The position numbers and the translations under genes are program-made. Below are positions 15,117 through 49,877 of a DNA stretch of 64,000 bases, one piece after another. Source of the stretch: Gardnerella vaginalis (GTDB lineage Bacteria > Actinomycetota > Actinomycetes > Actinomycetales > Bifidobacteriaceae); NCBI RefSeq assembly GCF_001546485.1, contig NZ_KQ956862.1, positions 1 through 64,000 of the forward strand, given 5' to 3'. The first letter of the stretch is position 1. Each line of letters opens with the position of its first letter. A model generated the notes under the pieces. The model did not search any database, had not been told where the DNA came from, and saw only the letters and a list, made by a program, of their open reading frames with translations.

Positions 15117-15195
15117 TTTAGTGTGTGAGTATTTAGATTCTTCATGATTTATCTCAATCAAAACTATGCAAGCGGAAGAAAGCGAACTGTTAAAA

Positions 15196-16158
15196 ATGTA
15201 TGATTACTCGGGATTGAACAAAAGGCTACAAGAAAAATGCGTTAAAAAATCTCAATTAGCAGCCGAGCTGCATATTTCTTCTCGTACGATTGCGAAAATT
15301 TCAAAAGGTGAAAAACTGTCAAATTCAGTAATCGCAAAAATAAGCAACTATTTACAATGTAATCCGAGCGAATTGTATCGCGTAATTTCAAGTAACCCTA
15401 TTTTGCAGAGGCTTAGGGAAGAAAAGGAGCATCGTATACCTGGTGGAATTTACCACGAGCTTCAAATTCGCATGACGTACAACTCGAATCATATTGAAGG
15501 TAGCCAGCTAAGTGAAGATCAAACTAGGCGAATTTTTGAAACTAATACTATTGATTCCGAAGAAAATGTGGATGGTGTAGTTGATAGCGCGGCTTCAAGC
15601 ACTGGTGCAGCAGAGAGCACAGCTATTAAGGTTGATGACATTGTTGAAACAGTGAATCATTTTCGCGCGATTGATTATTGCATTGATGTCGCTGAAGAGC
15701 CTCTTAGCGAAGACATGATTAAGCATTTACATTTGCTGCTTAAACGCGGAACAAGCGACGAGCTTCTGCCTTGGTTTCGTGTGGGCGACTACAAGTTGCG
15801 CGCAAATGTTGTAGGTGGTGTGCAAACTTGCGAGCCGAAAAAAGTGCACGAGGAGATTAGTAAGCTGTTGGCTGAATACCTTGCTAAAACTGATTTGCAG
15901 CTAGAGGATATAGTTGATTTTCACTACAGGTTTGAGCGAATACACCCATTTCAGGACGGTAATGGCAGAGTTGGGCGTTTGATTGCTTTTAAGGAATGCT
16001 TAAAGCATAATATCGTGCCGTTTATTATTGAGGATCGAAAGAAATATTACTATTATCGAGGTCTCAAAGAATACAGCAATGAGCGCGGATTCTTAGTTGA
16101 AACTTGCTATGACGGTCAAGATACGTTCCGTGCGTTGTTGAAGCTTTTTGGGTTGTGA
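15196..16158 (+). CDS. Self-inhibited Fic protein with N-terminal HTH
   Basis: Fic-family enzyme of class II, predicted to modify target proteins with AMP or a related group. An N-terminal HTH (KSQLAAELHISSRTIAKISKGEKLS) comes first. The intramolecular inhibitory helix follows, with S-N-H-I-E-G fitting (S/T)xxxE(G/N) at residues 97-102. Then comes the Fic core HPFQDGNGRVGR at about residues 250-261. The C-terminus has FIIEDRKKYYYYRGLKEY. The ATG at 15196 is chosen because the HTH family normally begins there; an in-frame ATG at 15166 would add ten residues. Neither start has a good ribosome binding site. Repeats at 15042-15116 could be its own operator. A terminator follows at 16245. Confidence 0.85.
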   Translation: MYDYSGLNKRLQEKCVKKSQLAAELHISSRTIAKISKGEKLSNSVIAKISNYLQCNPSELYRVISSNPILQRLREEKEHRIPGGIYHELQIRMTYNSNHIEGSQLSEDQTRRIFETNTIDSEENVDGVVDSAASSTGAAESTAIKVDDIVETVNHFRAIDYCIDVAEEPLSEDMIKHLHLLLKRGTSDELLPWFRVGDYKLRANVVGGVQTCEPKKVHEEISKLLAEYLAKTDLQLEDIVDFHYRFERIHPFQDGNGRVGRLIAFKECLKHNIVPFIIEDRKKYYYYRGLKEYSNERGFLVETCYDGQDTFRALLKLFGL

Positions 16159-16665: not shown

Positions 16666-17976
16666 ATGGATTACAAAACAATACGCAAAATAGTTGCGAT
16701 GTCTAAAAGTAATGCAAAACCGTGCGATATTGCGGAAGAAGAATATCGATCGCGCATTGATAATCCTGCGACGTATCGTTCTGGAATCGTATTTGATAAT
16801 CATGAGATTTTTGCAATGTGCGTAACGGATCTTGTAACGCACATAGATGATATTATGTGCACTGAAAAAGTCATTGAAAAAACATGGAGCATGCTGCCGC
16901 GGTTTGCTCAGCGTGAGTATTTAATGCAACTTATTGCAAAAGAAGTGCAAAATACAAACATTATTGAGGGTGTTCACAGCACTAGAAAAGAGCTTTCCAA
17001 AGCGCTTAATGCTGCGAGTGAACAGAATAAGCATACGCGTTTTAGTGAATTTACTAAGCTTTTTCTTGAGCTTGCAGATTCTAAAGAAAAGTCTGTTACG
17101 GACTCTGTTGCGGATTTGAATGTAAAGTCGGTTGCCAACTCCGATGAGTATGGCACTTCAATTCCGCAAATATTACAAGATATACGAAAAATTTACGACA
17201 GCATTATGCAAGGCGAATTAGAAGAAAAAGACATTCCAGATGGTGAGATTTTTAGGAGTGGGAAAGTAAGTATTCGTGATGGTGCAAATAATGTAGTGCA
17301 TGATGGCGATGCAACGGAAGTAGAAATTCAAAATCATTTAATGCAGATGTTGAGATTTATGAATATCAGCAAAGTCCCAACGCTTATTAAGGCGTGCATG
17401 TGCCACTATGCTTTTGAGAGCGTGCACCCATTTTATGATGGGAACGGCAGAACTGGGCGATTTTTGCTTGCTTTGCAATTGCATGATCAGCTTTCGATGC
17501 CAACAATTTTGAGCTTAAGCTCTATAGTTTATGCAGAAAAATCTGGATACTATGCTGCTTTTTCTAAATCGCAGGAGCTATTTAATTGCAACGATTTAAC
17601 TATGTTTTGCTGCACAATGTTGGAATATATTAAAAAAGCGCAGAACGAAGTATTAGACAATATTATTTTGCAAGCAAAACAGATTATTTACTGTATGGAT
17701 AAGCTATCCGAGTTTTCTAAAAAAACATCGATTTCTAAAGTGCAGCACGAAGTGATGACCATTTTGTTGCAAAATAAGCTTTTTTCTTATAACCCAACTC
17801 CCATGACTCGCAAGCAATTAAGTGAATACGTTGGCAATGCAATTGATGAGAAGATTGGCGAGCGAAAGATTGTGAGCGCGCTTAACGGTTTGATTGATTT
17901 TGGAATGATTGACGTGGTAGGTGAGCGTCCTATTCGGTATGAGCTTTCTAAAAAAGCGAATGAAATGTTTGAGTGA
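16666..17976 (+). CDS. Self-inhibited Fic protein with C-terminal winged helix
   Basis: Class II Fic enzyme of 436 residues. The inhibitory helix has T97-N-I-I-E101-G102, fitting (S/T)xxxE(G/N), and the catalytic loop is canonical, HPFYDGNGRTGR at residues 254-265. The N-terminal part resembles the Fic/DOC N-terminal domain (WSMLPRFAQREYLMQLIAKEVQNTNIIEG). The last 90 residues look like a winged helix (MTRKQLSEYVGNAIDEKIGERKIVSALNGLIDFGMID), so it may bind DNA. GGAG lies 8 bp before the ATG. The stop overlaps the start of the apbE-like gene. Targets are unknown; this group AMPylates diverse proteins. Confidence 0.88.
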   Translation: MDYKTIRKIVAMSKSNAKPCDIAEEEYRSRIDNPATYRSGIVFDNHEIFAMCVTDLVTHIDDIMCTEKVIEKTWSMLPRFAQREYLMQLIAKEVQNTNIIEGVHSTRKELSKALNAASEQNKHTRFSEFTKLFLELADSKEKSVTDSVADLNVKSVANSDEYGTSIPQILQDIRKIYDSIMQGELEEKDIPDGEIFRSGKVSIRDGANNVVHDGDATEVEIQNHLMQMLRFMNISKVPTLIKACMCHYAFESVHPFYDGNGRTGRFLLALQLHDQLSMPTILSLSSIVYAEKSGYYAAFSKSQELFNCNDLTMFCCTMLEYIKKAQNEVLDNIILQAKQIIYCMDKLSEFSKKTSISKVQHEVMTILLQNKLFSYNPTPMTRKQLSEYVGNAIDEKIGERKIVSALNGLIDFGMIDVVGERPIRYELSKKANEMFE

Positions 17977-24464: not shown

Positions 24465-24617
24465 TCGATATTATGTACCTGTGGGGCCTTTGTATGGCAA
24501 GTTTTAGTTGGGTGCGCTCGATTGGGGTAGAGCGTTTAGAAATGCAGGAAGTGCGTGAAGTGTGTGAAGCGCAAGCGCGCAAAATGCAAAAGACACAAAA
24601 GAACGCGAGGAGATGTT

Positions 24618-26336
24618 ATGCGCGCGTGTGTAAAAGTGCGCTGGATTATTCGTAATTCGGCTGCGCTGATGCTGGCTGTGTGCATGCTTATAAGTTGTGT
24701 AGTAAGCTCATTTGCTATCGCTACGCCAGTTTTCGCAACAGATGCAGATCGTTCATACGCTACATGGACTGAAGTTTCCAAGGCTATAGATAATCAATTA
24801 CAGCAAGGTCAAAACGAATACAGAAGTGGTAACAATTCCGGTGCTGCGACGAGATTCCAAGCAGCCTACAATTCTGTGTACGTTGCTTCAAACATGATTA
24901 CAGTTGTGCGAGATACAATTGGGCAGGATAAAGTTCAAGCGCAGCAAGACCAGTTCCAGCAGTTGCAAACGCTGGTATATCAACAAAATCAAGGTTCGCA
25001 AATAAGCGCTGTATCAAAAGCTCTTTCAGAAGACGTTGCACAAACTGCAGCTCAACTTGACTCAAATGCTAAGTTAGATAAGCCTAATATTTACGCACAA
25101 AAACTTCGGGCGCAAATCAAAGCAGAGCGAAAAAAGCTTGACGCTGCAAAAAAGAAAAATCTTGGCAGAAATGGTCGCACATGGAGTCAAGTTGCACGAG
25201 AAATGAACGTTATTCTCGACAAGTCCGTTGCAACCTACAAATCTGCAAAAGGAAACCAGTCGCAAGTCGCAACAGCCGTTGATTTAATTAACGAAGCCTA
25301 CTACCAGTATTATGAAAAACTTGGCTTTGAGAAAAACGTTATGAATGCAATTAGTGGAAGCCGCGTTTCAACAGTCGAATATCAGTTCAAAGAGTGCCGC
25401 CAAGCAATGAACAACGGCAAAACGGTTGAGCAAGCTAAAAAGTTCGTAACGGATCTTAAAGCAATGCTTATAGAAGATGCTGCAAAACTTGACGGTGGTG
25501 CTTCTTCTAGCGCAAACCCGTTGATGCAATTTATAACTAGTTCTTTTGGTCAGGCTTTTGTTATTTTACTGCGTGAAGGCTTAGAAGCATTGCTGGTTGT
25601 TGCAGCAATTATTGCGTACCTGATTAAATCTGGTCACAAAAACATGGTGAAGTACATTTACTTAGGACTTGTTGCTGGTATTGTTGCTTCGCTGATTGTT
25701 GCTGCACTGTTCGGACTATTGTTTAATGGTTCTGGACCGCAGCAAGAGATTACGGAAGGCGTGGTTGCACTGTTTGCAATGCTTATGCTTCTGTACACAA
25801 GCAACTGGATGATTTCGCGCTCTTCTGTACAAGCGTGGAATAAATACATTAGCGATCAAACCACGGCTGCCGTGTCCCAAGGCAGCTTGATTTCGCTTGT
25901 ACTGCTTAGCTTCTTGGCAGTGTTTCGTGAAGGTGCAGAAACTGTAATCTTCTACCAAGCTATTTTTGCGGTTTCAAACGGAGCTGATTCCATGATTTGG
26001 GGCGGTTTCGTTGCTGCGGCTGCAGTTTTAGTAGTAATTTTCCTGCTGATTCGTTTCGCATCTGTGCGCATACCAATTCGCCCATTCTTCACCGGTACAA
26101 GTGCTCTTATGTCTGTGCTTGTGGTGATTTTTGCTGGCGGTGGCGTGCATGCGCTCATAGAAGGCGATGCGCTCGCAGGTATGTATATTCAAGGCTTGCC
26201 AACTAACGATTGGCTTGGATTCTACCCGTATGTGGAAACGATTGTAGCTCAAATTGTAGCTGTAATCGTGGTAATTTCGCTGCTTTGCGTATCTATTGTG
26301 CGAAGCCGTGGAAAGTGTACGGTAGAAAATAAATAA
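24618..26336 (+). CDS. Ftr1-family iron permease with extracytoplasmic N-terminal domain
   Basis: Iron permease of the Ftr1/EfeU/FetM type, 572 residues. A signal peptide (about residues 1-40) leads into a helical extracytoplasmic domain of about 270 residues, then seven membrane helices. Both iron-binding REGxE motifs are present: LREGLEALLVV and FREGAETVIFY. GAGGAG lies 5 bp before the ATG at 24618; the longer frame to 24555 lacks one. It is followed by a P19-type iron-binding lipoprotein, DUF2318, two FtsX-like permeases and an ATPase, the same set as the Campylobacter P19 locus. It should import iron after extracytoplasmic oxidation or reduction. Confidence 0.92.
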   Translation: MRACVKVRWIIRNSAALMLAVCMLISCVVSSFAIATPVFATDADRSYATWTEVSKAIDNQLQQGQNEYRSGNNSGAATRFQAAYNSVYVASNMITVVRDTIGQDKVQAQQDQFQQLQTLVYQQNQGSQISAVSKALSEDVAQTAAQLDSNAKLDKPNIYAQKLRAQIKAERKKLDAAKKKNLGRNGRTWSQVAREMNVILDKSVATYKSAKGNQSQVATAVDLINEAYYQYYEKLGFEKNVMNAISGSRVSTVEYQFKECRQAMNNGKTVEQAKKFVTDLKAMLIEDAAKLDGGASSSANPLMQFITSSFGQAFVILLREGLEALLVVAAIIAYLIKSGHKNMVKYIYLGLVAGIVASLIVAALFGLLFNGSGPQQEITEGVVALFAMLMLLYTSNWMISRSSVQAWNKYISDQTTAAVSQGSLISLVLLSFLAVFREGAETVIFYQAIFAVSNGADSMIWGGFVAAAAVLVVIFLLIRFASVRIPIRPFFTGTSALMSVLVVIFAGGGVHALIEGDALAGMYIQGLPTNDWLGFYPYVETIVAQIVAVIVVISLLCVSIVRSRGKCTVENK

Positions 26337-26441
26337 GCAAAATAATCAAAAATAACCAATAAATAACTAACAAATAAGTAACAATTAAACAACGAGTAAC
26401 TCACAAATAAATAACCAATCAACAAACAGAGAAGGTTAGAT

Positions 26442-27086
26442 ATGAAGAATAATAAGATGATGGCACTTGCTGCCTTAGTGCTTGCAGGAATGCTTGCACT
26501 CGCTGGATGTGGTGCTAATGGCAATTCTGCTAAAACTGCCGCTAAGTCACAAGCGACTGAGCAGAAGGCTGACGACAAGGCCGACGACAAAGGCGGCGAT
26601 AAGGGCTTTGAAGAGGTGCCAGTTGGCCCTCACCAGGATCAAAACATTGGACCTCTTACTATCGGTGCCGTATACTTCCAGCCAGTTGATATGGTTCCAG
26701 CTGGCATGGGCTTGAAGGCTTCAGAAGCGAGCTTCCATCTTGAAGCCGATATTCATGCTAACCAAAAAGGCACCAAGCTCGGCTACGGTAAGGGCGAGTT
26801 CATTCCAGATTTGACTGTGAACTATGAGATTGTTGACAAGGCAAGCGGCGAATCTGTTGGCAAGGGCACGTTCATGCAGATGAATGCTTCCGATGGTCCT
26901 CATTATGGTGCAAACGTTAAGCTTGACAAGGCTGGCAACTACAAGCTTGTGCTTTCCATCGAATCCCCAGAAAAGAAGGGTTGGATGCTTCACGTCGATC
27001 CTGCTACCGGCGTAACTGGTCGCTTCTGGACTGAACCAATCAAGGCAACATTCGACGACTGGAAGTACACTCCTCGCCAGTGGTAG
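26442..27086 (+). CDS. P19/FetP-type iron-binding lipoprotein
   Basis: Extracytoplasmic iron/copper-binding partner of the permease, 214 residues. A lipoprotein signal ends in LALAGC (Cys at about residue 23), then a charged linker and an immunoglobulin-like P19 domain: IGPLTIGAVYFQPVDMVPAGMG, then SFHLEADIHAN with the metal-binding His, GEFIPDLTVNYEIVD and MNASDGPHYGANVKL. Met and His residues in those segments are the family's metal ligands. AGAAGG precedes the ATG. It follows the permease by 105 bp of AT-rich repetitive sequence. Confidence 0.92.
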   Translation: MKNNKMMALAALVLAGMLALAGCGANGNSAKTAAKSQATEQKADDKADDKGGDKGFEEVPVGPHQDQNIGPLTIGAVYFQPVDMVPAGMGLKASEASFHLEADIHANQKGTKLGYGKGEFIPDLTVNYEIVDKASGESVGKGTFMQMNASDGPHYGANVKLDKAGNYKLVLSIESPEKKGWMLHVDPATGVTGRFWTEPIKATFDDWKYTPRQW

Positions 27087-27181
27087 TAATAGTTAGTAAT
27101 AATCAGAAGTAGTTAGTAATTATTAGCAATTATTAGTAATTATTGAGTTAAAGATTATAACTGATAGCAAAGGAGGGAGTT
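27087..27181. repeat. AT-rich degenerate tandem repeat between iron genes
   Basis: Several copies of TTAGTAATTATTAG-like sequence fill the gap before the DUF2318 gene, ending in a strong AAAGGAGG site. No gene seen. Confidence 0.4.
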
Positions 27182-28453
27182 ATGCTCAGACTGTTCGTAG
27201 CAGTTATGCCTGGGCTGCTCCCGCTTATGCTACTTACCATGGGCTTAAGCGCTTCTCTTACGGTTGGTGAGGGGCGAGATAAGCCGCTAAGTGCGCGATG
27301 GAGATTGTATGGCCTGTCGGTTGGCACAGTTGCCGCACTTATTTTTGCGATTCTTCGAGCAAGCGTAGTAATTAATCAGCGTAACTTTATTAACATGCCT
27401 GCGCTTTGCGTTGCAGTTCCTTTCGACATTGCGGCGATTGTAGTTGTGCTTCGTTCGCACAAAACTGTTGAAAACTGGCGTACGCACCAGCTTGCAATGC
27501 ACATAAGTAACGCAATCGGCGCGTGCGCACTAGCATTTACCGTATTTTATGCGCTTCCAGACGTTATTTTACAGCTTACAATTTTCGTAGATTCAAGCAC
27601 GCCGCCGTTTACTTCCGACATGCTTTTGCGTGCTCTTGGTTTTATTCTAGGTATTATTGCGGCGATTTGTTTAAGTCTTATGGCTCGTTCAGTGCGAGCT
27701 ACAGCTAGCGCAATTTCCTTCAAAATTGCAATTGTGCTCAGCATGATTATTCTGCTTGTGCAGCACGTAACTTCACTTTTGCAGATTATGCAAGGAAGCA
27801 TTCTGCTTTATATTGACGACTTTTCTTTCAGCGTGCTTGTTTGGCTGATTAACAATAATCCGCTGATGATTATGGCGCAAATTTGTGTGTTTTTGATTCC
27901 TGCAGTTGCATCTCTCGTAATCGGTTTTAAGACGGCAGTAGTTGGTGAAAATGCTGCAGAAATTCGCACAAAGCGAGCTTTTAAGCGCAAATCTCGAAAG
28001 TCTGCGCTCGCAGCGCTTTTGGCTGCAGTTACGGTAATACTTACGCTTACTGCAGGCGTATCTATTATGAATATTAAGCCAACTCTTACGCCTCCAGAAC
28101 CGTACGAATTGCACGATGGTGTGGCAACTATCAACTTTGTGCAAATTTCAGACGGCCACCTTCACCGCTTCCAATACAAAGCAAAAGATGGCACTGTTAT
28201 GCGCTTTATAATCATTAAAAAGAATGGTGGAGCATATGGAGTTGGTTTAGACGCGTGTGAAAACTGTGGAGACGCAGGCTACTATGAAAAAGACGGCAAG
28301 ATTATTTGCCGCAAATGTGACGTAGCAATTAACTTGGCGACCATTGGTTTTAAGGGTGGTTGCAATCCGATTCCGTTCCCGTATAAGGCTGGGCATGGCA
28401 AAATCACCATTCATACTGCTGATTTAGACGTGCTTAGTTCGCACTTTAAGTAA
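27182..28453 (+). CDS. DUF2318 membrane protein of the iron-uptake operon
   Basis: Polytopic membrane protein, 423 residues with about eight helices, followed by an extracytoplasmic DUF2318 domain (about residues 305-423). The domain has ACENCGDAGYYEKDGKIICRKC and GGCNPIPFPY, a cysteine set (two CxxC plus one Cys) expected to bind a metal or redox centre. Homologues sit beside P19 in Campylobacter-type loci and are thought to handle electrons or iron for import. AAAGGAGG gives strong initiation. It is followed after 10 bp by the first FtsX-like permease. Confidence 0.88.
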   Translation: MLRLFVAVMPGLLPLMLLTMGLSASLTVGEGRDKPLSARWRLYGLSVGTVAALIFAILRASVVINQRNFINMPALCVAVPFDIAAIVVVLRSHKTVENWRTHQLAMHISNAIGACALAFTVFYALPDVILQLTIFVDSSTPPFTSDMLLRALGFILGIIAAICLSLMARSVRATASAISFKIAIVLSMIILLVQHVTSLLQIMQGSILLYIDDFSFSVLVWLINNNPLMIMAQICVFLIPAVASLVIGFKTAVVGENAAEIRTKRAFKRKSRKSALAALLAAVTVILTLTAGVSIMNIKPTLTPPEPYELHDGVATINFVQISDGHLHRFQYKAKDGTVMRFIIIKKNGGAYGVGLDACENCGDAGYYEKDGKIICRKCDVAINLATIGFKGGCNPIPFPYKAGHGKITIHTADLDVLSSHFK

Positions 28454-28463
28454 GGAGCAACTA

Positions 28464-29798
28464 ATGTTTATGATGCGTATGGTTGCTCGCTCTCTTGTGC
28501 GGCAAATAAAAAAGCGCGTTCTGATTGCGCTTGTAGTGTGTTTAAGCGCGTGCGTAAGCGTTGCAATGCTTAGTGTTGTGTATGACGTTGGAGACAAGAT
28601 TAACGCCGAGCTTAGCTCATACGGTTCGAATATTGTTGTTCAACCAAAATCTAGTGCTGTTGTGAATGATTTGTATGCGTCTCGCGAGCAGGAAGATGCT
28701 GCTTCTTTGCATAATCTAGCAGCTGCCGAAAGCCAAGAGTCTACTGCTTTTTTGAAGGAATCAGACGCTGCAAAAATTAAAATGATTTTTTGGGCGTTCA
28801 ATATTACGAATTTTGCGCCGAAAATAAAAGTTCACGCCAATCTTGAAGTGAAGTCTTCTACGAAAACTGTGGTGCCGATTGTTGGAACTTGGTTTAATCG
28901 CAAGCTTGCGCTGGCTTCTGGTGAAACAACTGTTGTTGGCGTTCAAGGTTTGCGTTCTTGGTGGAAGATTCGCTCAGGCAGATGGGCAAAAGATAATCAA
29001 TCCGAGGCAATGGTCGGTGTGAATCTAGCGGAACGTTTGCACTTAAAACTTGGCCAGCGTTTGCGTTTGCTTCGTGACGGACGCAAAATTTTGTTGCGCA
29101 TTGTGGGCGTATACGATTCCGGCGACGACGATAATAACGCAATTTACGCAAGCTCTAGCGATGCTCAAAACCTTGCAAATAAGCCGAATATGGCTGATTT
29201 GATTGAGGTAAAGGCGCTTACTACTCCTGAAAATGATTTAGCGCGTAAGGCTGCTAAAAATCCGGCAGCACTCAGCCAAGAAGAGTGGGAGACTTGGTAT
29301 TGCACTGCTTACCCGAGTTCGATTACTTACCAAATTGAGGAGGTAATTCCGGGAGCTGTTGCAAAACAGGTTCGTCAAGTTGCGGCGCTGCAGGGAAACG
29401 TATTGAATAAGACGCGCGCTGTTATGGTTTTGATGACTGCATTGAGCTTGATTGCTGCGGCTGTTGCTGTGGCGAATCTTATGGCTGCTTCGATTTCGGA
29501 ACGTTCCGGTGAGCTTGCCTTACTTAAGGCTTTGGGTGCACGAGATGGTGCTGTTGCTCGTCTTATGCTTATGGAAACTGCGGTTATTGCATTTGGTGGA
29601 GCGCTTCTAGGCATGGTTTTGGGATTTGCGGTGGCACAGATTATTGGTTTTACGGTGTTTGGTTCTGCGATTTTGTTCCGACCAATGGTATTTGTGCTTG
29701 TGTTTGTGCTGCTTGCGTTGACTGTGCTTGCGGCTGCAGGCTCGTCGATTCGTTCGATTTTGAGTGTGCGTCCTGCGGAGGTGCTTCATGGCAGGTAA
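28464..29798 (+). CDS. FtsX/MacB-like ABC permease 1 of the iron operon
   Basis: Membrane subunit of a type VII-like ABC complex, 444 residues. One N-terminal membrane helix (about residues 17-40), a large extracytoplasmic domain (SSYGSNIVVQPKS...), and three C-terminal helices with the FtsX-domain motif SGELALLKALGARDGAVARLML. RPAEVLHGR closes it, the usual end for this group. AAGGAG lies 6 bp before the ATG. It overlaps the next permease by 11 bp. Such complexes do mechanical work rather than simple import. Confidence 0.9.
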   Translation: MFMMRMVARSLVRQIKKRVLIALVVCLSACVSVAMLSVVYDVGDKINAELSSYGSNIVVQPKSSAVVNDLYASREQEDAASLHNLAAAESQESTAFLKESDAAKIKMIFWAFNITNFAPKIKVHANLEVKSSTKTVVPIVGTWFNRKLALASGETTVVGVQGLRSWWKIRSGRWAKDNQSEAMVGVNLAERLHLKLGQRLRLLRDGRKILLRIVGVYDSGDDDNNAIYASSSDAQNLANKPNMADLIEVKALTTPENDLARKAAKNPAALSQEEWETWYCTAYPSSITYQIEEVIPGAVAKQVRQVAALQGNVLNKTRAVMVLMTALSLIAAAVAVANLMAASISERSGELALLKALGARDGAVARLMLMETAVIAFGGALLGMVLGFAVAQIIGFTVFGSAILFRPMVFVLVFVLLALTVLAAAGSSIRSILSVRPAEVLHGR

Positions 29799-31083
29799 AT
29801 CTTATATGACTTCCAACAATGCAATGTTTATAACCATGCTATTGAGCGCGGTATTTCGCCGAAAATCGCGTGCTCTAATGGCTGTTATTGCAACGCTTGT
29901 TGGTGCTGCTACGCTGTTTTGTTTGGCTGCAATCTGCCTGGTTGTGCCCCAGCAGATGAGCGACGAAATGCGCGCGTATGGAGCGAATATTATCGTAACG
30001 CCAATTGAGGGCGAGTGGAAAAACGGTATTGATCGCGCAATGGTTTTGCATACAAACGATATGGTTCTTGCAAAAGGTGCTATGCGATCTGCTACGTATC
30101 GTTACGAAAATGTGCGTATTAACGCAGCTCCGTACGTTTTAGCAGGAATAGACGTTCGTTCAGTAAAGTCTCTTAATAAGCATTGGAATGTAGACGGCTC
30201 TTGGCCGAGCAGCGGAAATGTGATGGTTGGGCGAGATGTTGCTTCTGCGATGGGCTTAAAAATAGGCTCTCGTATTGCAATTGCGTATAGATCTTCGGAT
30301 AATACTAACGGCTCGCATAAGCCTGCAGAGAAATCTGAAGATAAGTCTGCAAGTAAATCTGCAAATAAGTCTACAAATCAGTCTGCACAAAAATCTTCTC
30401 AACAAAAGCTTGTTGAAGGCAGAGTTTCAACGGATATTATGGATACTCACGGCACAACTTTCCGCGTTTGTGGCATTTTGGACACTGGTGGTGCAGAGGA
30501 TTCCATGCTTTATGCACTAAACGCAGATGTAAATACTCTTACTGGAGTTAAGCGCGGAGCAGACGTGATTGCTTACTCGTCTTCTGCGCCTAGCGTTGAT
30601 GCGGTTGTGAGAAGCATTAACAATATGACTTCTATGCGCGTGCGCGCTCAGCAGGTTACTAAAGTTACTGCTGCTGACACTGGTATTATTACTATGCTTC
30701 GCAGCCTGTTTTGCATAGTTTCGCTAGTTGTGCTCGCGTTGATGATGGTTGGTGTGAGCACTACGATTTCTTCGATTGTGCAACAGCGTCGAAACGAAAT
30801 TGGTTTGCGCAAAGCTTTGGGTGCAAGCGCTAAGAGTATTGGCGTGGAATTTACTGCCGAAGCTGGATTATACGGTTTCGTTGGTGGCATTGCCGGCACG
30901 GCAGTAGGGTATGTGTTTGCGCGTTTGCTTGCGGCAATGGTGTTCGCTAGAGATTTGGGTGTGAATTGGTGGCTTGTTGCATTTTCTGTTGCATTTAGCC
31001 TGATTGCTTCTTGCGTTGCTGCGTTGCCGCCTGTTTTGCGCGCTTCAAAAATTGACCCTGCAATTGTGCTTCGAGAAGAATAA
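29788..31083 (+). CDS. FtsX/MacB-like ABC permease 2 of the iron operon
   Basis: Second membrane subunit, 431 residues, same topology as the previous gene. The first helix is at about residues 20-46; the FtsX motif is RRNEIGLRKALGASAKSIGVEF, and it ends ASKIDPAIVLREE. A Lys/Ser/Asn-rich low-complexity insert lies at about residues 175-205 (DKSASKSANKSTNQSAQKSS). GGAGG lies upstream of the ATG at 29788; the longer frame from 29764 has no site. The two permeases probably form a heterodimer. Confidence 0.9.
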   Translation: MAGKSYMTSNNAMFITMLLSAVFRRKSRALMAVIATLVGAATLFCLAAICLVVPQQMSDEMRAYGANIIVTPIEGEWKNGIDRAMVLHTNDMVLAKGAMRSATYRYENVRINAAPYVLAGIDVRSVKSLNKHWNVDGSWPSSGNVMVGRDVASAMGLKIGSRIAIAYRSSDNTNGSHKPAEKSEDKSASKSANKSTNQSAQKSSQQKLVEGRVSTDIMDTHGTTFRVCGILDTGGAEDSMLYALNADVNTLTGVKRGADVIAYSSSAPSVDAVVRSINNMTSMRVRAQQVTKVTAADTGIITMLRSLFCIVSLVVLALMMVGVSTTISSIVQQRRNEIGLRKALGASAKSIGVEFTAEAGLYGFVGGIAGTAVGYVFARLLAAMVFARDLGVNWWLVAFSVAFSLIASCVAALPPVLRASKIDPAIVLREE

Positions 31084-31133
31084 TTTTAAGCGTAAATTTA
31101 TGGATTGTTTAAGATTTGAGTTAAGGATTTAAC

Positions 31134-31979
31134 ATGGCAGAGAATGTAGAAAATAAGTTGGAAGGCGCGGAGTCTAAGCCAAAAATGCTGTTGACTTTGG
31201 ATCATATTTCCAAGATCTACGGCTCTCTTCGTGCTGTTGACGATTTGTCGCTTACTGTGCCAGAAGGTGAGTGGCTTTCTATTGTTGGCTCCAGTGGTTC
31301 TGGCAAAACAACGTTAATGAACATTATTGGCTGCATGGATTCGCCGTCCAAGGGTTCCGTGTCTTTGCAAGGACGCAAACTTGAGGATTTGAACGCCGGT
31401 CAGCTTGCTGACGTTCGTAAAAACGTAATCGGCTTAGTTTTTCAAAAGTTTTATCTTGTACCACATTTAACGGCTGTTGAAAACGTGATGGTTGCGCAAT
31501 ACTATCATTCGGTTGTTGACGAAGCTCAAGCGATGGACGCTTTGGATCGCGTAGGTTTGAAGGATCGTGCTTACCATCTGCCAAGTCAGCTTTCTGGCGG
31601 CGAGCAGCAGCGTGTGTGCATTGCTCGTGCGCTTATTAACTGTCCTAAGTTGCTGCTTGCGGATGAGCCAACTGGCAATTTGGATGAAAAAAATGAGCAG
31701 ATTGTGCTCGACTTGTTTAAGCAGCTACATAAGCAAGGCACGACGATTATTGTTGTAACTCACGATTCTTTGGTAGCTCAATGCGCTGATCGCGAAATTA
31801 TGCTTAATCACGGTGTGCTTGTTGGTGAGCGCTGGAATAATGAGGATGCGCGTAAAGCGTACGAGGCGATTGGCGGCAAGCCTGCGTTTACGAGTGCGCA
31901 TATTGATGAAAGCGTTGCGGAAGCTTTGCAAGACCATGAGCCTACTAAGTCGCCTAAATTAGCGAATTTAGATGATTAG
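31134..31979 (+). CDS. MacB/LolD-type ABC ATPase of the iron operon
   Basis: ATP-binding subunit, 281 residues, matching the two FtsX-like permeases. Walker A is [15 protein letters not shown], the signature [15 protein letters not shown], and Walker [34 protein letters not shown] is typical of LolD/MacB. The C-terminal extension of about 45 residues is variable. AAGGA precedes the ATG. The stop is followed by the FMN-binding lipoprotein gene. Confidence 0.92.
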
Positions 31980-45379: not shown

Positions 45380-46489
45380 TTAGAAGTCCCAATCATCGTC
45401 GTCAGTTTCAACAGACTTGCCCATAATGTAGCTGGAACCAGAGCCGGAGAAGAAGTCGTGATTTTCGTCGGCTGCAGGAGAAAGAGCTGCGAGAATTTCT
45501 GGGCTTACGTGAGTTTCTTCTTCGCTGTACTTGGCAGGGTAGCCAAGGTTCATCAAAGCCTTGTTAGCGTTGTAACGCACGAAATCAAAAACGTCATCGT
45601 GGAAGTCAAATCCTTCATAAATCTGACCAGAATACTCAACTTCCAAATCGTACAAAGTGTCAAGCAAGTTCATAGTGAACTTTTCAAGATTCTTCTTATC
45701 GTTCTCGCTTCTAAGCTCCAAACCGCGCTGGAACTTGTAGCCGGAATAATAGCCGTGAATAGCTTTATCGCGCAAAATCAAACGAATCATGTCCGCAGTA
45801 TTCATCATCTTGCCGCGAGAAGCAAAGTAAAGCGGAAGATAGAAGCCTGCGTAAAGAAGCAGCGAAGAAAGCATAGTTGCTGCAATCTTGCGCTTAAGCG
45901 GATCTTCGCTCTCATACTCGCAAAGCACGGTGGTAACGCGCTGCTGTAAAACGTCGTTGCCAACAGCCCAACGGTAAGCTTCGTCAATTTCTTCGCTAGA
46001 GCAAAGAGTAGAGAAAATAGAGGAGTAGGAGCGAGCGTGAATTGACTGCATAAAAGCAATATTCGTGTAAATAGCCTGTTCGTGCTCAGTGCGAGCGTGC
46101 TCAATCTGGCAAAGCTCACCAATAGTTGCTTGGCTGGTATCAAGCAAAGTCAAGCCCGTAAAAACGCGAGTAGTTGTTTTGCGTTCAAGATCGGTGAGGG
46201 AACGCCAAGAAGGAATATCGTTGCTCAGTGGCACTTTTTCAGGAAGCCAGAAGTTAGCAATAAGGCGATTCCAAACATCTAAATCTTTGTCATCAACAAT
46301 ATTATTCCAATTAACTGGGCGCACGCGCGATCCGTGATGGTAGCGGTACTGAGCTGGTGTGATAGAAGCTGCCATCATCTCGTCGCTTGCGATGACGCGA
46401 TTCGTGCCGAAAGGCTTATCGAGGCTACTGCGCAGTGCAGTTGGGTCGAGTGCTGTTGGATCGAGCTCGGTTGGGCTGAGTTCTGTCAT
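45380..46489 (-). CDS. nrdF: Ribonucleotide reductase R2 subunit NrdF, metal-ligand-free (class Ie) type
   Basis: R2 subunit that holds the radical for NrdE, 369 residues. The fold is NrdF: VFTGLTLLDTSQATIG, YTNIAFMQSIHARSYSSIF, LLLYAGFYLPLYFASRG, MIRLILRDKAIHGYYSGYK. Of the six normal metal ligands, Asp117, His151 and His245 are kept. The three glutamates are replaced: Gln148 (MQSIH instead of MESVH), Ser208 (LSSLLLY instead of LESFLFY) and Lys242 (RDKAIHG instead of RDEAVHG). This Q/S/K set is a known mark of class Ie R2 proteins, which work without metal using a tyrosine modified to DOPA; the candidate is Tyr155 in HARSY. NrdI, needed for that modification, is in the operon. Last gene of nrdHIEF. 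Confidence 0.95.
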   Translation of the reverse strand: MTELSPTELDPTALDPTALRSSLDKPFGTNRVIASDEMMAASITPAQYRYHHGSRVRPVNWNNIVDDKDLDVWNRLIANFWLPEKVPLSNDIPSWRSLTDLERKTTTRVFTGLTLLDTSQATIGELCQIEHARTEHEQAIYTNIAFMQSIHARSYSSIFSTLCSSEEIDEAYRWAVGNDVLQQRVTTVLCEYESEDPLKRKIAATMLSSLLLYAGFYLPLYFASRGKMMNTADMIRLILRDKAIHGYYSGYKFQRGLELRSENDKKNLEKFTMNLLDTLYDLEVEYSGQIYEGFDFHDDVFDFVRYNANKALMNLGYPAKYSEEETHVSPEILAALSPAADENHDFFSGSGSSYIMGKSVETDDDDWDF

Positions 46490-49829: not shown

Positions 49830-49877
49830 GCACTATTTATAGTGGTGTGTCGATTGTGTAAACACTACATATAGTTA
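49830..49877 (-). promoter_or_regulatory. Two NrdR boxes upstream of nrdHIEF
   Basis: GCACTATTTATAGTGG (49830-49845) and ACACTACATATAGTTA (49862-49877) match the NrdR consensus ACACwATATATwGTGT in most positions. They are 32 bp apart (three helical turns), the usual NrdR spacing. They indicate repression by NrdR when dNTP/ATP is high. Confidence 0.75.

Follow-up and report, generated by a model that had tools for sequence, protein, structure and literature searches.

Metal-free ribonucleotide reduction offers one of the clearest examples of an essential enzyme that has become independent of its metal, and for the Gardnerella protein it was demonstrated, and the protein crystallised, in 2025 (John et al., 2025, PMC11846895). 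In that study, manganese and iron were detected only in trace amounts in the R2e-QSK subunit of G. vaginalis by TXRF, and metal was absent from two crystal structures; PDB entries 8RAG and 8RAH represent the unmodified and DOPA forms, respectively. The Mn1 position is taken by K237 (K242 in the protein analysed here) and that of Mn2 by a well-defined water, and the extended N-terminus gives rise to an unusually large dimer contact. DOPA was formed at Y150 (Y155 here) only when NrdI was co-expressed, and its yield was increased by NrdH and R1, which surprised the authors. CDP was reduced, in air, only by the DOPA-containing protein together with reduced NrdI, with significantly less product than for a VPK control, and formation of the radical was deduced from this activity, as a radical signature was not detected in the purified QSK protein. 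The organism is stated there to live mainly under anoxic conditions, and a general horizontal spread of nrdF-QSK was already proposed, with 17 nrdHIEF cases counted.

The nrdHIEF operon and its R2 subunit

The stretch of DNA analysed here (the window; 64,000 nucleotides of G. vaginalis contig NZ_KQ956862.1) carries on its minus strand an intact nrdH-nrdI-nrdE-nrdF operon, with nrdF as the last gene and gaps of 85, 68 and 112 bp (Table 1). The nrdF open reading frame starts with ATG, is preceded by AGGAG and encodes 369 residues with no internal stops. An earlier note on this DNA had read the product as an NrdF in which glutamine, serine and lysine replace three metal-binding glutamates, and the translation confirms Q148, S208 (the first serine of LSSLLLY) and K242, with D117, H151, H245 and Y155 retained; the intact NrdI that it had placed next door was likewise recovered, well above the family cut-off (Table 1). 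The protein thus displays the residues that define class Ie of the QSK type, namely Q, S and K at the metal-ligand glutamates with the aspartate, two histidines and tyrosine kept. The three glutamate ligands of class Ib are missing, and neither the V, P, K triad nor the gene order nrdFIE of the class Ie VPK type was found, the order in the window being nrdHIEF. As the seven-residue set was identical in all 57 loci checked, covering 55 QSK Bifidobacteriaceae genomes, the QSK residues are not due to chance or sequencing error.

Table 1. Coordinates of the features discussed, given as window positions except for the diverged R2-like loci
Feature	Position	Strand	Remarks
nrdF, class Ie (QSK) R2 subunit, 369 aa	45380..46489	(-)	5 differences over 363 aligned positions to PDB 8RAG
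K242 codon, replaces third glutamate	45764..45766	(-)	K237 of published protein, ammonium group at Mn1 position
S208 codon, replaces second glutamate	45866..45868	(-)	S203 of published protein
Y155 codon	46025..46027	(-)	Y150 of published protein, hydroxylated to DOPA there
Q148 codon (CAG), replaces first glutamate	46046..46048	(-)	Q143 of published protein
D117 codon, retained aspartate	46139..46141	(-)	D112 of published protein, D88 of M. florum R2e
nrdE, R1 catalytic subunit, 748 aa	46602..48848	(-)	native bifidobacterial descent
nrdI, flavodoxin-like activase, 163 aa	48917..49408	(-)	native bifidobacterial descent; TIGR00333 134.4 bits, cut-off 74.65
nrdH, glutaredoxin-like thiol donor, 84 aa	49494..49748	(-)	
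Pair of NrdR-box-like palindromes (32 bp apart), ~80-130 bp before nrdH	49830..49877	(-)	49830-49845, 3 mismatches; 49862-49877, 2 mismatches on one strand and 3 on the other
Fic/DOC-domain gene	15166-16158	(+)	
Fic/DOC-domain gene	16666-17976	(+)	
Iron-uptake cluster	24555-31979	(+)	FTR1, Fe2+ transport protein, FtrD-like protein, two FtsX-type permeases, ABC ATPase
FTR1 iron permease	24555-26336	(+)	
Fe2+ transport protein	26442-27086	(+)	
FtrD-like Fe-S protein	27182-28453	(+)	ABC transporter genes next
Diverged R2-like gene loci	L116-L127		genomes G025, G082-G085, G087, G088, G090-G094

The best solved-structure matches of the window NrdF were 8RAG and 8RAH. Residues 7-369 were aligned to 8RAG with 358 of 363 identical, and all five differences, counted by eye in the alignment, lie before residue 42. 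The metal-free class Ie nature of the Gardnerella NrdF is correct and was already published in 2025, so that the reading of the earlier note (class Ie, metal-free, DOPA, NrdI-dependent) is borne out by a near-identical protein; its claim that a DOPA radical is used goes too far, since radical formation was deduced from activity with reduced NrdI and the purified QSK protein gave no radical signature (PMC11846895). Landmark residues of Mesoplasma florum R2e correspond to those of the window protein at a constant offset of 29, with D88, H122, Y126, L183, F187 and K213 of the former equivalent to D117, H151, Y155, L212, F216 and K242 of the latter (PMC8902622, PMC7615503). L183 is described there as one of the residues that move on radical formation. 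With three named Gardnerella records, the window NrdF shares 96-97% identity. Within residues 1-41, both the length and the sequence of the extension vary among the window protein, 8RAG and other Gardnerella rows, with short DPTAL-like repeats.

An alignment of 114 distinct R2 rows (55 QSK, 47 with three glutamates, hereafter EEE, 11 of a diverged type described below and one with a local frame change) was used for comparison of the family. All 55 QSK rows, including the window NrdF, formed a single clade with a support of 100/100. Discriminating columns, defined by at least 90% conservation within each of the QSK and EEE groups, numbered 22 including the three defining ones, and the window protein carries the QSK state at 22 of 22. 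The position of L212 is occupied by phenylalanine in 47 of 47 EEE rows.

Upstream of nrdH, two NrdR-box-like palindromes were located (Table 1). Across both strands of the window, 15 such matches were counted against a mean of 8.15 in shuffled sequence, a number reached by 4 of 100 shuffles, and the statistic by itself is weak evidence for NrdR boxes. Elsewhere in the window, two Fic/DOC-domain genes lie near each other and a cluster of iron-uptake genes is present (Table 1).

Descent of nrdF and of its partners

The 27 distinct bifidobacterial QSK NrdF rows fall apart from the bifidobacterial EEE proteins: 26 of them form one clade (100/100) beside Actinotignum (100/77), and the 27th (G075) was grouped with Actinomyces (90/92). 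In the NrdI tree, which was built from only 131 columns, the window NrdI was placed inside a 49-row bifidobacterial group (100/99) and outside a 27-row clade of QSK partners (97/92). The latter consists of 24 non-bifidobacterial rows and three rows from B. choladohabitans, B. mellis and B. apousia, in which the NrdI lies beside a QSK nrdF; these three may represent the earliest branch of the clade, although their placement in it is unsupported (22/46). Forcing four Gardnerella NrdIs to group with the 27 was rejected by an AU test (p-AU 0.011, for a group picked after inspection of the tree). In the NrdE tree, for which only SH-aLRT support was calculated, the window protein belongs to a 46-row bifidobacterial clade (100) and 17 non-bifidobacterial NrdEs from QSK operons are placed elsewhere (99). 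On these trees, the operon looks most simply like a chimera in which a foreign QSK nrdF replaced only nrdF, in the native nrdHIE slot, and NrdI and NrdE appear to be of manganese-enzyme descent and to serve a metal-free R2 now. As far as could be searched, this partner swap is new: no report was found in the literature searched, with most subscription journals outside its coverage.

Among the matches listed, at least 55 of 189 family genomes encode a QSK NrdF, the seven residues having been verified in all 55 (57 loci). Again among the matches listed, QSK is the only NrdF match in 12 Gardnerella-type and 6 thermophilum/boum-type genomes, and nrdF occupies the nrdHIE slot wherever the operon of such a QSK-only genome was examined (the window, three Gardnerella and three thermophilum/boum records, and five thermophilum/boum-type genomes, where the last two sets may overlap). 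The listed matches further include 15 genomes of another genus code in which QSK lies no more than ~4.2 kb from a second NrdF of ~60% identity, which reads EEE in the four loci examined (L010, L011, L040 and L154), six genomes in which both NrdF types are present but apart (G002, G075, G096, G140, G148 and G149), and 16 genomes in which QSK is located away from nrdE and an EEE match is lacking. In L010, L011 and L040, from B. choladohabitans, B. mellis and B. apousia, nrdI-nrdF(QSK) is found directly upstream of nrdI-nrdE-nrdF(EEE), and the two NrdIs fall in different clades. Three irregular cases were also observed. In G142, which belongs to the same group but lacks a full QSK NrdF, a low-scoring NrdF fragment (80 bits; L159:4117-4794) lies upstream of nrdI and is perhaps the remnant of a lost QSK copy. 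The nrdF of G104 (L136:3846-4847), a near relative by NrdE, is apparently in another frame around residues 203-215, leaving one glutamate-ligand region unreadable, through either a sequencing error or decay. In G086, a one-contig assembly, QSK nrdF and nrdE are matched piecewise in different frames, probably as a result of assembly indels.

Signs of adaptation to the partner were sought in NrdI and NrdE. Methionine occupies position 139 of NrdI (T139 in the window) in all 22 bifidobacterial NrdIs with an EEE partner and in none of the 54 with a QSK partner, which have L, T or I; adaptation of this position to the partner is possible, and no column of NrdI, position 139 included, passed the joint test for co-adaptation. 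Residues 615-616 of NrdE were considered as a class Ie marker: most NrdEs with an EEE partner have QN there, and all 24 bifidobacterial NrdEs that lack an intact EEE nrdF have [E/A/S]Y. However, this marker was dropped, as QN is retained in genomes with both R2 types, Y616 occurs in two EEE-partner bifidobacterial NrdEs, AY is present in the solved structure 9L6O, whose partner R2 is EEE, only three independent tree pairs on starred branches are available (median p 0.25), and the column overlap has a P of 0.11.

An NrdI and R1 of manganese descent working with a metal-free R2 would constitute a natural experiment, and in other bifidobacteria the QSK and EEE R2s occur next to each other, with NrdI present in two kinds. 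The apparently swapped partners and the genomes with dual R2s open a direct way to test which features of the partners are required for DOPA formation. Together with the displaced R2 described below, the partner swap is what most deserves a specialist's attention.

Diverged R2-like genes in genomes with a QSK NrdF

In 12 of the 16 genomes in which QSK lies apart from nrdE, an R2-like gene with ~27-40% identity to the window NrdF was identified that shares strand and contig with the native nrdE and lies downstream of it, at a distance ranging from directly adjacent to ~17 kb (Table 1). Eleven of the open reading frames are intact; the G083 copy is broken by a stop and was left out of the signature, residue and dN/dS counts, and in the four other genomes (G012, G013, G086 and G089) the gene was not matched. 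The signature is EEHY[E/Q]IS in 10 of the 11 intact copies and ESHYQLS in one. At the first metal site, E, E and H are found in 10/11 (with the tyrosine), D117 being changed to E in 11/11, and at the second, E242 is replaced by Ile or Leu and H245 by Ser in every copy. W81 and the DWDF end (of the R1-binding DDDWDF tail) are kept in all 11, and the aligned Y354 is absent from all 11, in a region where the alignment is of low complexity. At the 22 discriminating columns, the commonest letter is that of EEE at 11, that of QSK at 4 and another at 7. Because of these columns and its genomic place, the gene fits descent from a native class Ib NrdF, with a branch length of 3.34 in the R2 tree and an unsure placement there.

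Mean dN/dS was 0.19 for the diverged gene (55 pairs, 11 copies), compared with 0.09 for nrdE (66 pairs from 12 genomes) and 0.06 for QSK nrdF (36 pairs from 9 of these 12), all with partly saturated synonymous sites; judged by codon comparison, this shows a gene that evolves rapidly yet seems constrained, under purifying selection. The main alternative, that the gene is a slow relic, accords with the split copy in G083 and with the four genomes lacking a match. Our best guess is that the product would have retained binding to NrdE and act as a regulator or as a non-catalytic subunit. A fuller history can be put forward only tentatively and at somewhat less than even odds: the metal-free R2 would have arrived by gene transfer and taken over the operon of a manganese RNR together with its NrdI and NrdE, and in one species group it would have displaced the manganese R2, turning it into a conserved non-catalytic R2-like subunit that may regulate or assemble the NrdE/R2e complex. 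The gene in these 12 genomes would thereby illustrate a possible fate of a displaced metalloenzyme. No report of it was found in the literature searched, the coverage of which excludes most subscription journals.

Mechanism, alternatives and known systems

The product of the window gene is almost certainly the R2 subunit of a QSK-type, metal-free class Ie RNR with an NrdI-formed DOPA radical, in an operon that looks chimeric, the published experiments concerning a near-identical protein and not that of the window strain itself. The ammonium group of K242 would occupy the Mn1 site, with Q148 and S208 replacing two further metal ligands. An oxidant derived from reduced NrdI and O2 would reach this site and hydroxylate Y155 to DOPA, and an NrdI-generated, DOPA-centred radical would then be passed to R1 via W81 and Y354, leading to ribonucleotide reduction. 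Three elements of this scheme are inferred: which oxidant acts, that a radical forms in the QSK protein, and that W81 and Y354 serve as relay residues.

It is very improbable that the protein is instead a normal Mn2 R2 of class Ib in which the substituted residues continue to coordinate metal in vivo. The operon type nrdHIEF is shared with that class, the NCBIfam name for the window NrdF is class Ib, D117, H151 and H245 are retained, and both NrdI and NrdE descend from class Ib. However, the TXRF traces of manganese and iron and the two metal-free crystal structures were obtained from a protein identical from residue 42, in which a lysine ammonium takes the Mn1 position (PMC11846895), and Q, S and K co-occur in 55/55 QSK rows, the rest of the 114 being of the kinds listed above. 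A dead or decaying nrdF, with the cell relying on class III RNR alone, would agree with the class III genes of the genome and with the mainly anoxic life stated for the organism, but the chance of this is minute given that all 12 Gardnerella-type genomes carry a full-length, stop-free nrdF match at 98-100% identity, that W81 (54/55, with one gap) and Y354 (54/55) are kept among the QSK rows, that QSK nrdF of nine related genomes shows a mean dN/dS of ~0.06 and that the near-identical protein is active in vitro (PMC11846895).

The earlier note had extended the metal-free reading to the whole cell, stating that DNA precursor synthesis here needs neither iron nor manganese and calling this a good match to metal-restricted hosts. 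In the whole genome, assembled to 1.6 Mb in 59 contigs, PF00268 (R2) and PF02867 (R1) each gave a single match, so that nrdEF is the only class I RNR found and is of the metal-free type; a second class I or a class II large subunit was not found with PF02867 across the whole genome. Aerobic dNTP synthesis can therefore be free of iron and manganese, and the statement stands for this aerobic route at most. For the cell as a whole it is unlikely, as class III NrdD and NrdG are also encoded (NrdD in 33 of 33 relatives chosen for checking), of which NrdG is described with a [4Fe-4S] cluster (PMC5535262), and FTR1-type iron-uptake genes are present in the window. Adaptation to metal-starved hosts is further opposed by the occurrence of QSK NrdF in Streptomyces, Leucobacter and Brevibacterium, and any tie between QSK NrdF and metal-restricted hosts is put forward as a hypothesis.

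Among known systems, the R2e-QSK of G. vaginalis (Bifidobacterium vaginale) ATCC 14019 (PDB 8RAG/8RAH; Commun Biol 2025;8:281, PMC11846895) matches the window in gene order nrdHIEF, QSK residues and extended N-terminus. From window residue 42 onwards the two sequences do not differ at all, whereas the window protein carries five substitutions and an N-terminus five residues longer, so that its numbering equals the published one +5, and belongs to another strain or species of the genus. The class Ie VPK R2s (M. florum 6GP2/8BT3/8BT4; Aerococcus and Streptococcus proteins) share with it the loss of the three glutamates, the third-site lysine, DOPA and dependence on NrdI; in contrast to these, the QSK protein is without a radical signature after purification (PMC11846895). 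The VPK proteins also carry V and P where QSK has Q and S, and their gene order is nrdFIE instead of nrdHIEF. Class Ib Mn2 NrdFs (C. ammoniagenes 3MJO; 8J4X, named nrdF2; and 1R2F, which we take to be from Salmonella) resemble the window protein in fold family, operon type, NrdI and NrdH partners and the retained D, two H and Y, but E148, E208 and E242 are replaced in the window and the 22 discriminating columns differ in total. Lastly, subunits of the yeast Rnr4 type are non-catalytic R2 homologues that have lost metal ligands and are kept beside a working R2. The diverged R2-like gene is similar in having lost metal ligands while being maintained alongside a working R2; it differs from Rnr4 in being bacterial and in retaining the tyrosine that corresponds to Y155 as well as a largely intact first metal site.
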